Made by a program: the position numbers and the translations under genes. A DNA stretch of 26,208 bases, from IMG/VR virus record IMGVR_UViG_3300049629_000047, positions 1 through 26,208 of that record; one strand, written 5' to 3'. Shown one piece after another: positions 255 through 3,123 of this stretch (within the stretch, counting starts at the first letter, position 1; every line of letters begins with the position of its first letter). The stretch is from a virus. The notes beneath the pieces are model-generated. The model saw only the letters and a list, made by a program, of their open reading frames with translations, was not told the origin of the DNA and searched no databases.

Positions 255-461
255 TTAACGACGGCCGGTGATAAATTCAGGATTTGACGCAACTTTGTAA
301 ATAATGGCCAGCCCGAGAATTGTATTTTGCTGGCTGGTTTTTAACGCGCTGCGATAGAGCGCGGACAATCCACGCGCGATATAGTCGTCGCCGAGAGTTG
401 CGCCGTTAACGATAATTTTCGCGATGTCGCGTTGTTGGGCTTTGTTTAGTGTGTTCATCAT
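255..461 (-). CDS. Small hypothetical phage protein (about 68 aa)
   Basis: The open frame extends further upstream, to 542, but that stretch contains the -35 and -10 of a promoter. I therefore place the start at ATG 461 or the adjacent ATG 458, the latter 6 bases after the GAAAGT of the 18-bp leader. The protein begins MMNTLNKAQQRDIAKIIVNG and ends EFITGRR. It is mostly helical in appearance, soluble, with no signal peptide or cysteines. I do not recognise the family. It is the first gene of the leftward transcription unit and so a likely early gene; the same leader precedes its downstream neighbour. Confidence 0.65.
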   Translation of the reverse strand: MMNTLNKAQQRDIAKIIVNGATLGDDYIARGLSALYRSALKTSQQNTILGLAIIYKVASNPEFITGRR

Positions 462-464
462 GTG

Positions 465-482
465 ACTTTCGTTTAGTTGATT
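465..482 (-). repeat. 18-bp repeated translation leader, copy 2
   Basis: Identical to 204-221. It sits directly upstream of the start at 461/458 and supplies its GAAAG ribosome-binding core. A related but degenerate string (TTCGTTTAGCAGATT) occurs near 689-703 in the control region without an obvious gene behind it. Confidence 0.8.
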
Positions 483-510
483 ATGTGGCGCAAAATCGCG
501 CGCACAAATT

Positions 511-539
511 AATGTAAGGGATTCACTTGCATTTGTCAA
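511..539 (-). promoter_or_regulatory. Leftward sigma70-type promoter for the early-side genes
   Basis: On the minus strand a perfect TTGACA (539-534) is followed by a 17-base spacer and TACATT (516-511), four of six matches to TATAAT. Transcription would begin near 504, giving a leader of roughly 40 bases that contains the 18-bp repeat before the start at 461/458. The perfect -35 and ideal spacing suggest recognition by host RNA polymerase straight after infection; that timing is inference. Confidence 0.7.
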
Positions 540-826
540 CAACTATTTTCTAGGTGTTTACCCTATTTTTTGTGGGCATTGTGGGTTATTTGTAGGCATG
601 CGCGGCATGACCTGAATTGCCTACATAAAAGGCCCGTAGTTGCTGGGTTTTTTGTTGCTTGTAGGTCATATTGTCAATTATTTGTATATTCGTTTAGCAG
701 ATTAAAAAGTAGTACTATATAGTTATAGGTTGTGTACGGGTACGCCGTTTGGCCAGCGACTAAAAACATATGACAACATTGCCCACATTGCCTACATTAT
801 GCTTTTGATAAGTATATGGCCACGAT

Positions 827-1032
827 GTTAGTGGCCACTAACTTAGGTCAAATGGCCATCGGCCCCAGCCCGATGTTAGTAAGCACTCACTTTGCCTGGC
901 TAAGTTAGTAAGCACTCACTTCGCTAAGTTAGCGAGCACTAACATATAGATTTGACAAGTTAGTAGACACTAACTTAGCGGCTGTAAGTAAGTGCTCACT
1001 AACCAGGCTGCTGTAAGTAAGTGCTCACTAAC
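827..1032. repeat. Array of seven 16-bp palindromic sites (GTTAGT-N4-ACTAAC)
   Basis: Sites start at 827, 875, 904, 928, 959, 988 and 1017. The first, GTTAGTGGCCACTAAC, is a perfect palindrome; 959 is perfect outside its 4-base centre; the others have one or two half-site changes (GTTAGTAAGCACTCAC at 875 and 904, GTAAGTGCTCACTAAC at 988 and 1017). Spacing is 29 bases for three of six steps and 24-48 otherwise. The 875/904 copies extend to an identical 18 bp and the 988/1017 copies to an identical 23 bp (981-1003, 1010-1032); the two pairs face opposite directions, so the array is roughly two-fold symmetric. Length and symmetry fit a homodimeric helix-turn-helix protein (TetR-like operators have this form), or iterons for an initiator. 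No candidate binding protein is visible in the window. Confidence 0.8.
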
Positions 1033-1035
1033 ATA

Positions 1036-1064
1036 GGGGGTGGGGGTAGGGCCGACGGCCAGGG
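1036..1064 (+). other. G-tract cluster (possible G-quadruplex)
   Basis: Runs of G at 1036-1040, 1042-1046, 1049-1051 and 1062-1064 give four tracts with loops of 1, 2 and 10 bases, immediately after the last palindrome. The long third loop makes quadruplex folding plausible but not compelling. Confidence 0.35.
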
Positions 1065-1142
1065 CCATACGGTGACGGAGGGTTCACAAACAATTTTTTT
1101 TATTTTTAAAAAATGGCTACACGACTTCAAAGCCAAAAATAA

Positions 1143-1171
1143 TTGCCCACATGACCCACGTTTGGTATATT
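1143..1171 (+). promoter_or_regulatory. Rightward extended -10 promoter abutting terS
   Basis: TTGCCC (1143-1148), a 17-base spacer and TATATT (1166-1171) preceded by TGG make an extended -10 promoter, five of six in the -10. The predicted transcription start (about 1178) falls one base before the terS ATG at 1179, so the mRNA would have almost no leader. The same TGN-TATATTCG string recurs at 8719-8729. Confidence 0.5.
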
Positions 1172-1178
1172 CGGGCAC

Positions 1179-1625
1179 ATGTTTCACAGTCTTCCATTTG
1201 AGCCGCGCAAGATCGTTGCGACCGAAGCGCGGCTAAACAAAATCTACGAAGCCGCCAAGCTGGGCTTGAAGGGCGACGCATTGGCGCTGGCGTCAGGCAT
1301 GCTGCCCACCGAGTACCGGCAACTGTGCGAGTTGGATCCAATAGCGGACATGGCTGCGCTCAAGGGCAAAGCCGACGGCGAGTTGGAGATGTCTAAGTGT
1401 CTGCACAAGGCCGCGACCGAAGGCGACGCCAAAGCGGCGTTGGCGATCCTCCAGCACTCACACGGCTGGGTGGCCAAGCAGTCCATCAGCATTGATGTCG
1501 ACCAGCGCATCAGCATCGTCGGCGCGCTACGCCAAGCCGAGTCACGGGTCATTGATGTGATCGCCAACGAACCAAGTCCAACACTGGAACACAAGGTAAA
1601 TGCAGAACACCATCTACAGCGCTGA
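1179..1625 (+). CDS. terS: Terminase small subunit
   Basis: A 148-aa protein directly before terL, overlapping it by 26 bases. Residues about 20-50 (KIYEAAKLGLKGDALALASG and following) look like the helix-turn-helix DNA-recognition part of podoviral small terminases. The centre is helical (LEMSKCLHKAATEGDAKAAL), as expected for the oligomerisation core, and residues 95 onward (HGWVAKQSISIDVDQRISI) form the segment typically seen before the portal/TerL contact. Its role would be to recognise the phage packaging site and load TerL. There is no Shine-Dalgarno before ATG 1179 and no earlier start in frame after the TGA at 1152-1154, so initiation on a leaderless or near-leaderless mRNA is likely if the promoter just upstream is real. 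Confidence 0.82.
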   Translation: MFHSLPFEPRKIVATEARLNKIYEAAKLGLKGDALALASGMLPTEYRQLCELDPIADMAALKGKADGELEMSKCLHKAATEGDAKAALAILQHSHGWVAKQSISIDVDQRISIVGALRQAESRVIDVIANEPSPTLEHKVNAEHHLQR

Positions 1626-3123
1626 AGACGAACAGGAATTGATGGCCAGGCTTTGGAGTCCGGCGATCAGGGACAACCCGCTGGCGTTTGTAATGTTTGC
1701 GTTTCCTTGGGGTGTCAAGGGCACACCATTGGAAAACTTCCAAGGCCCGCGCAAATGGCAGCGCGAGGTGCTGCTGGATGTGGCCGAACATATAAAGATA
1801 AATCAGGGCAAGCTGGACTTTGACGTATTGCAAGAGGCAATATCGTCAGGCCGTGGTATTGGTAAGTCGGCGTTGGTCAGTTGGCTAACTATTTGGATGG
1901 TGGCCACACGAATTGGCTCGACGACCATCATTTCGGCCAACTCGGAAAGCCAGCTCAGATCAATCACTTGGGCCGAGATCACAAAATGGCTGGCGATGTC
2001 AATCAACAGCCACTGGTTTGAGGTGTCAGCCACCAGAGTGATGCCCGCCAAGTGGCTGACCGAACTGGTTGAGCGGGATTTGAAGAAGGGCACACGCTAC
2101 TGGGGCGTCGAAGGGCGCTTATGGTCAGCGGAAAACCCCGACGCGTACGCTGGTGTGCACAATTTTGACGGTGTTTTGGTGATTTTTGACGAGGCCAGTG
2201 GTATTGACGACTCCATTTGGGCAGTTACTAGCGGTTTTTTTACAGAAAACACACCAAATCGTTTCTGGATGGCTTTTTCCAACCCACGGCGCAACACTGG
2301 GTACTTTTACGAGGCGTTTAACAGTAAGCGCGAGTTCTGGCGCACAAAAGTGGTGGATGCGCGCACGGTCGAGGGTACCGACAAGGCGGTTTATCAGCGG
2401 ATTATTGATGAGTATGGGCCAGACTCGGCGCAGGCGCACGTTGAGGTGTACGGTCAGTTTCCCAACGCGGGGGATGACCAGTTCATTGGGGCCGACATCG
2501 TGGACGACGCGATGAAACGGACGAAATACCAGGATCAGTCAGCACCGATTGTGATCGGGGTAGACCCCGCACGGTTCGGGGCGGACGCCACGGTCATCGC
2601 GGTGCGCCAAGGTCGGGACATTGTGAAGATCATGCGCCACAGGGGCGACGACACCATGACGGTGGTCGGGCATGTGATCGAAGCGATTGAAGAATTCAAG
2701 CCGACGCTGACCGTGATCGACGAAGGTGGCCTAGGGGCTGGCATCGTGGATCGGCTGAAGGAGCAACGGTACAAGATCAAGGGTGTGAACTTCGGAAATA
2801 AGGCGAAGAACCCGATCATGTACGGCAATATGCGCGCGCAGATGTGGGGTGACATGCGCGAGTGGCTGAAGACGGCGGCGATTCCAAACGACAGGTTCTT
2901 GAAGACGGACTTGATTTCGCCTATGATGAAGCCTGACTCAAAAGGGACGATTTTCTTGGAAAGCAAAAAAGACATGAAGTCGCGTGGGTTGGCGTCACCT
3001 GACGCAGCCGATGCGATTGCTGTTACATTTGCATTTCCTGTAGCACATCGGCAATATGTTGAACCAAGCCGCCGCGTGAACGCGCAAGGCAGTGGGGTCA
3101 ACGCATCATGGATGGGGAGTTAA
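1600..3123 (+). CDS. terL: Terminase large subunit (packaging ATPase-nuclease)
   Basis: The 507-aa protein has the normal length for the family. The ATPase domain shows a Walker A SGRGIGKS at residues 83-90 and a Walker B VLVIFDEAS at 192-200 with catalytic D197-E198. A coupling-type motif (SNPRRNTG) follows near 227-234. The RNase H-like nuclease has GVDPARFG at 320-327 (D322), VIDEGGLG at 372-379 (D374) and SPDAADA at 466-472, the expected acidic triad. It would cut concatemers and drive DNA through the portal encoded downstream. The start at 1600 lies inside terS (26-base overlap) and is preceded by AAGGTAA, suggesting translational coupling. Confidence 0.96.
   Translation: MQNTIYSAEDEQELMARLWSPAIRDNPLAFVMFAFPWGVKGTPLENFQGPRKWQREVLLDVAEHIKINQGKLDFDVLQEAISSGRGIGKSALVSWLTIWMVATRIGSTTIISANSESQLRSITWAEITKWLAMSINSHWFEVSATRVMPAKWLTELVERDLKKGTRYWGVEGRLWSAENPDAYAGVHNFDGVLVIFDEASGIDDSIWAVTSGFFTENTPNRFWMAFSNPRRNTGYFYEAFNSKREFWRTKVVDARTVEGTDKAVYQRIIDEYGPDSAQAHVEVYGQFPNAGDDQFIGADIVDDAMKRTKYQDQSAPIVIGVDPARFGADATVIAVRQGRDIVKIMRHRGDDTMTVVGHVIEAIEEFKPTLTVIDEGGLGAGIVDRLKEQRYKIKGVNFGNKAKNPIMYGNMRAQMWGDMREWLKTAAIPNDRFLKTDLISPMMKPDSKGTIFLESKKDMKSRGLASPDAADAIAVTFAFPVAHRQYVEPSRRVNAQGSGVNASWMGS

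Follow-up and report, generated by a model that had tools for sequence, protein, structure and literature searches.

The locus examined here raises a simple question: why does a phage carry seven similar palindromes in front of its terminase genes, and which protein would recognize them? The window, the whole stretch of DNA that was analysed, is an IMG/VR record of 26,208 bases and belongs to a freshwater phage that resembles podoviruses. SlmA is a bacterial nucleoid-occlusion protein, a TetR-family dimer and an antagonist of FtsZ that blocks Z-ring assembly when bound to DNA. We consider it probable, at roughly two chances in three, that recruitment of host SlmA is the working principle of the array.

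Layout of the window and anatomy of the array

Early genes on the minus strand occupy the left part of the window (255–542 and leftwards), and the late genes lie on the right, starting with terS at 1179 and terL at 1600. The region between them is thus divergent, as the first-pass annotation had described it, and contains or adjoins the following features.

255–542, minus strand: left-hand early gene, ORF of 95 aa, function not assigned
511–539, minus strand: predicted early promoter TTGACA-17-TACATT, a consensus match only, separated from the left edge of the array by about 288 bp
827–1032, no strand: the array, made up of seven palindromes of 16 bp that match the motif of SlmA sites and are predicted to bind SlmA
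827–842, no strand: site 1, GTTAGTGGCCACTAAC, exact match to GTTAGT-N4-ACTAAC
875–890, no strand: site 2, GTTAGTAAGCACTCAC, one mismatch
904–919, no strand: site 3, GTTAGTAAGCACTCAC, one mismatch, identical to site 2
928–943, no strand: site 4, GTTAGCGAGCACTAAC, one mismatch
959–974, no strand: site 5, GTTAGTAGACACTAAC, exact match to GTTAGT-N4-ACTAAC
984–1003, no strand: site 6, nested 20-mer GTAAGTAAGTGCTCACTAAC, its 16-mer at 988 with one mismatch
1013–1032, no strand: site 7, the same nested 20-mer as site 6, its 16-mer at 1017 with one mismatch
1035–1108, plus strand: conserved GC-rich block and T-tract, GGGGGNGGGGGTAGGGCCG...GGAGGGTTCACAAACAATTTTTT, between array and terS; candidate packaging or origin element
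1143–1171, plus strand: predicted late promoter TTGCCC-17-TATATT, a consensus match only, with the -35 inside a 9-mer repeat, separated from the right edge of the array by about 111 bp
1179–1625, plus strand: terS, terminase small subunit, 148 aa, recognized by its position before terL; 61–96% identity among the TerS of the group
1600–3123, plus strand: terL, terminase large subunit, 507 aa, PHROG 2 and 5902

The TerS of the window gave no hit in PHROG. The first-pass annotation had placed the palindromes correctly at 827, 875, 904, 928, 959, 988 and 1017, and its common pattern GTTAGT-N4-ACTAAC holds for all of them, exactly at 827 and 959 and with one mismatch at the other five. The 29-base spacing that it saw at three steps is evident in the measured start-to-start distances (48, 29, 24, 31, 29 and 29), and the perfect 23-bp repeat GCTGTAAGTAAGTGCTCACTAAC is present at 981–1003 and 1010–1032. 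The two-fold symmetry that it proposed holds, albeit approximately: sites 875 and 904 are identical and have a weak half-site opposite to that of 988 and 1017, and the inverted arms 875–921 and 957–1003 are 72% complementary.

The window has seven sites with at most one mismatch, every one of them in the 206-bp array, against 0.035 expected in the whole window (200 dinucleotide shuffles). The same shuffles gave a maximum of one such site per 206 bp, as did 2000 local shuffles. A scan allowing up to three mismatches (11 matches versus 8 expected) is too loose to reveal the significance of the array.

Conservation among relatives

Sixty-four relatives were picked by TerL alone and were hence not selected for the array. 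At least three sites (4–11) lie just upstream of terS in 21 of them, and none in the other 43, save one with two. The first-pass annotation had named absence of the array from close relatives with the flanking genes as grounds for refutation. The outcome is mixed: the array was found in all 13 relatives with a TerL identity of at least 93% and sufficient upstream sequence, but below that identity it is an all-or-none feature. Each array-bearing relative has one compact array, with no sites elsewhere in its genome.

Compared with the window, the palindrome arms diverge by 1–7% in six of eight relatives, and by 12% and 17% in the two where the alignment lost or shifted a site. The spacers diverge by 35–55% in the six more distant of these eight, and in aligned orthologues the central N4 is less constrained than the arms. 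Judged from sequence comparison, the array is conserved as putative protein-binding DNA. The 1035–1108 block is kept in nearly all relatives, array-bearing or not, and in many of them a -10 sequence upstream of terS resembles that of the predicted late promoter of the window.

No array was found in the Methylophilales phage Venkman, DSL-LC05 or MW202545 (partial sequence); MW202483 has one lone site, and the stretch of MW202697 that was read has a nested site and a single one. Sites 4 and 5 are separated by the spacer ATATAGATTTGACAAG (window 944–958), which is inverted in L014, L015 and L016, as if it had been flipped between the flanking palindromes. The array-less L039, L044 and L226 have repeats of about 24 bp, similar to ATGCTTGCCATTTTGACTAGTAT, at the same place upstream of terS, which are perhaps the sites of another factor.

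Recurrence in unrelated phages

Among the matches listed from a scan of IMG/VR for paired sites, at least 69 array loci, partly overlapping, have at least four sites in 300 bp, and 59 of these 69 have a terminase-region gene within 2.5 kb. At least five terminase lineages, unrelated to one another, have arrays, mostly of 4–11 sites, next to their terminase genes; the terminase groups are given below.

Window type: array beside terS and terL
L093: PHROG 38
L127, L150, L159, L167 and L198: a Hint-like gene in between
L176
L133, L145 and L112: small subunit of PHROG 51, smaller arrays of about two sites
L090 and L178: TerL 31% identical to that of the window

PHROG 1482, PHROG 51 and window-type TerS are all found beside the same motif, and the distance and side of the array relative to terS differ between lineages. 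In L127, L150, L159, L167, L189 and L198 the gene between the array and terL encodes about 330 aa and resembles, by eye, a Hint/intein domain. The motif is common to phages with unrelated small terminases and gene sets, which makes a phage-specific protein unlikely as its ligand and indicates a host factor.

An array bound by TerS at a cos or pac site was considered and rejected, since unrelated TerS families have the motif while close TerS relatives occur without the array. Arrays of the GTTAGTTATGACTAAC type in some large contigs (L137, L114 and L165) were excluded because their motif is a different one. These contigs and L107 carry many palindromes of the GTTAGT-TATG-ACTAAC type, with a different centre, and apparently represent another repeat family.

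The first-pass annotation had also offered a phage repressor switch and an initiator iteron set. That the array serves a repressor or initiator encoded by the phage itself now seems very improbable. Its position in the sole large divergent intergenic region would suit such a role, as would a weak cumulative GC-skew minimum nearby in several genomes, although GC skew gave a weak and inconsistent signal as a locator of the phage origin. A small HTH-like ORF in G002, G003 and G012 is a conceivable source of the protein; however, G012 is array-less and the ORF was not detected in the other array genomes. The TetR_N domain was found in none of 27 array-bearing records, several of them 35–40 kb and near complete, a result that excludes other repressor folds less fully. 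The array is also dispensable for 43 of the 64 relatives, which have the same flanking genes but lack it. An operator would have sites overlapping promoters, whereas the array overlaps neither of the two predicted here, which are themselves consensus matches only. An iteron origin would have direct repeats for its own initiator, whereas the repeats found here are palindromes, and phages whose terminases are unrelated have them in common.

A better candidate for an initiator target is a separate family of 8–9-mers, TTGCCCACA/TTGCCTACA, located in the window at 571–600, 616–627, 776–798 and 1142–1162, so that direct and inverted copies flank the array on both sides. The versions of relatives change together within each genome (TGTCCACA, TGCCAACA, TGCCGACA, TGACCCAA, TGACTCAC), with up to 14 copies. 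This joint change, in repeats that are DnaA-box-like in form, suggests a co-evolving phage initiator or regulator. No phage-encoded TetR or DnaA-type protein was found in the array phages searched; MW202483 codes for a 98-aa protein with DnaA domain IV (L201 31423–31719; Bac_DnaA_C, 64 bits), which is absent from the other 14 records searched.

Match to SlmA-binding sites

For comparison with known binding sites we used a matrix derived from phages only, built on 461 distinct sites in 82 arrays; the sites were chosen by pattern, and its arm positions are consequently sharpened by selection. Three E. coli SlmA sites have measured affinities, SBScons (Kd 25 nM), SBS17 (190 nM) and SBS12 (270 nM), with a fit of two dimers per site (PMC4423959). 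The phage nested 20-mer matrix scores them at 30.0, 16.7 and 5.5 bits, respectively, which is their order of affinity. With this matrix, the share of random or bacterial positions that reach the same score is 0 for SBScons, at most 3.4e-6 for SBS17 and at most 2.4e-5 for SBS12; with the 16-bp matrix it is at most 4e-5 for all three tested sites. The published consensus of SlmA, GTGAGTACTCAC (PMC3116907), is part of the nested consensus of the phage sites, GTTAGTGAGTACTCACTAAC, and the array sequence fits the tested sites in having GTGAGTACTCAC within a 20-bp palindrome. In the window, sites 6 and 7 agree at 17 of 20 bases with GTAAGTGAGCGCTCACTTAC, the consensus SlmA site of E. coli, and each nested 20-mer is expected, from the published site and its stoichiometry, to take two dimers. 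We found no paper in the literature searched that connects SlmA sites with phages.

These comparisons support a TetR-type dimer as the dimeric DNA-binding protein predicted by the first-pass annotation. Its further proposal, a sink for a host TetR-like regulator, stands in part: a host TetR-like protein is favoured, most likely SlmA, but titration is kept only as a rival use of the sites. Binding of SlmA to the array in the real host is likely, and more so than the reading as a whole.

SlmA in Burkholderiales, the presumed order of the host

Binning had placed related phage contigs in two MAGs, one of Rhodoferax and one of Burkholderiales, and the host order is inferred from these two. SlmA (NCBIfam NF007015 over the cut-off) is present in 85 of the 120 genomes of this order, Burkholderiales. 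The E. coli SlmA sequence used for comparison agreed with NCBIfam and with PDB entries 3nxc, 4gck and 5k58. Its recognition helix, SEAALYRHF, is the same in 30 of 30 Burkholderiales SlmA proteins examined. It speaks against SlmA recruitment that the Rhodoferax MAG with related phage contigs has no SlmA over the cut-off, although this genome is possibly incomplete and its phage contigs have no array either, one lone site only. Array-less contigs in an SlmA-negative genome, if it is one, fit the SlmA reading.

The terminus region of the E. coli chromosome is devoid of SlmA sites (PMC3116907). The corresponding distribution was analysed in G275, an SlmA-positive Burkholderiales chromosome (1.71 Mb, 46.5% GC) whose origin and terminus were placed by GC skew. 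The best 30 matches to the phage matrix comprise 28 in the origin half and 2 in the terminus half (p=4e-7), and none of 1467 permuted palindromic matrices put fewer than 6 of its best 30 in the terminus half. In this one genome the motif avoids the terminus half. With a matrix of E. coli sites only, the top 7 matches all lie in the origin half, but the terminus half has 5 of the top 15 (p=0.15), and the origin bias is weak further down the ranking (p=0.02–0.15). Given the weakness of this bias, the distribution result rests on the phage matrix.

In G275, 23 matches reach at least 12 bits, modestly more than the 13.5 simulated and no more than the reversed-matrix control gave (43). Counts of strict consensus and 20-mer patterns are not raised in SlmA-positive genomes relative to the control, and the scan of candidate hosts for the exact 16-mer, proposed in the first-pass annotation, showed no excess, with matches in 2 of the 61 genomes of the family, in one case within a phage contig. 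The strict counts lend no support to SlmA recruitment, so that the chromosomal support consists of the distribution in one genome.

Operators similar to GTnAGTnnnnACTnAC lie 45–50 bp upstream of SlmA-like TetR genes in L268 (G213), L269 (G169) and L273 (G100); in G213 the operator is GTGAGTGACCACTCAC, about 50 bp upstream. This suggests that a SlmA paralogue autoregulates via such operators.

The existence of these paralogues weakens the case for SlmA itself, as another host TetR of SlmA-type specificity, for example an SlmA-like paralogue, could be the ligand of the array. Operators GTGAGTGACCACTCAC (-50), GTTAGCTATTACTTAC (-45) and GTAATTAATTACTCAC (-50) at SlmA-like TetR genes are what such a protein would be expected to bind. 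However, the paralogues examined have single operators rather than arrays, and a gene-specific repressor is not expected to have sites across the origin half that are missing around the terminus. We regard this alternative as improbable.

Possible use of SlmA by the phage

If SlmA binds, the phage would supply DNA sites only, the cognate protein being that of the host. Multiplying phage genomes would each add seven sites, two of them nested with room for two dimers, and SlmA–DNA complexes spread through the cell could prevent formation of the Z-ring, so that the infected cell would stop dividing during phage maturation. Tandem SlmA sites on a multicopy plasmid cause a lethal block of division in E. 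coli when SlmA is functional, via dispersed active SlmA–DNA complexes (PMC3573117); a replicating seven-site phage is expected to act alike. The location of both predicted promoters outside the array and the variable distance between array and terS make a plain operator less likely and favour a function for which the presence of the sites on phage DNA is enough. Division arrest is the likeliest use of the array; granted binding, the chances are about even that the phage gains from this and not from titration, shielding or gene control.

Titration is another conceivable use of the same binding. By soaking up SlmA, the array could act as a copy-number timer that frees an SlmA-controlled promoter or disables nucleoid occlusion. 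There are about 500 SlmA dimers per nucleoid in E. coli (PMC3573117), and at 7–14 dimers per phage genome some 35–70 genomes would exhaust them. In Vibrio cholerae, SlmA is able to control transcription when bound 167 bp away from the start (PMC5519180), and the array sits between the predicted early and late promoters. However, gaps of about 288 and 111 bp separate it from these promoters, its distance and side relative to terS are not constant among lineages, and SlmA sites upstream of a promoter left expression unchanged in E. coli (PMC3573117). We therefore hold titration to be unlikely, if the strongest of the alternatives.

Alternatively, through its contacts with membrane and FtsZ, SlmA might prevent the septum from closing on the mass of phage DNA, or might tether that DNA. 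Complexes of SlmA, its site and FtsZ gather at membranes in vitro (PMC7468209), and a single compact array per genome is in keeping with such a role, but the DNA mass of a lytic phage would need shielding only if division went on. Protection is as improbable as the recruitment of another host TetR.

Division arrest through recruited SlmA, if true, would mean that phages turn nucleoid occlusion to their own use by bringing in the DNA signal for it, a takeover without a gene product that gene-based annotation would miss. The reach of SlmA biology would then include freshwater Burkholderiales. The SlmA reading offers a testable reason for the occurrence of the same palindromes at the same place in unrelated phages. 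A broader proposal, that several unrelated aquatic phage lineages independently acquired arrays of SlmA sites as a DNA-only, protein-free inhibitor of division, is tentative and falls somewhat short of even odds. The arrays would also provide natural high-density SlmA sites for the study of SlmA action on FtsZ.

Comparison with known systems

Temperate phages possess operator and stoperator arrays, in which many short repressor-type sites in control regions are bound by a phage-encoded repressor. The present arrays are similar in the number, kind and placement of their sites, but no repressor of that type was found for the array phages. The chromosomal SlmA sites of E. coli and Vibrio have the same palindromic motif and the same nested 20-bp form taking two dimers, and avoidance of the terminus half by the motif recurs in the one SlmA-positive chromosome tested. 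They are, however, scattered singly (24–52 in E. coli) and mostly within genes, whereas the phages concentrate 4–11 sites in about 200 bp of an intergenic control region. Kil of phage lambda, an inhibitor of FtsZ (PMC3961180), is comparable in that host division may be blocked in infection in both cases; Kil is a protein, whereas the array would offer sites for a host protein and none would be made by the phage. A further likeness is to the pUC-2xSBS plasmids (PMC3573117), which also present clustered SlmA sites on high-copy DNA. Those plasmids are laboratory constructs, whereas the phage array would be their natural, viral and conserved counterpart.
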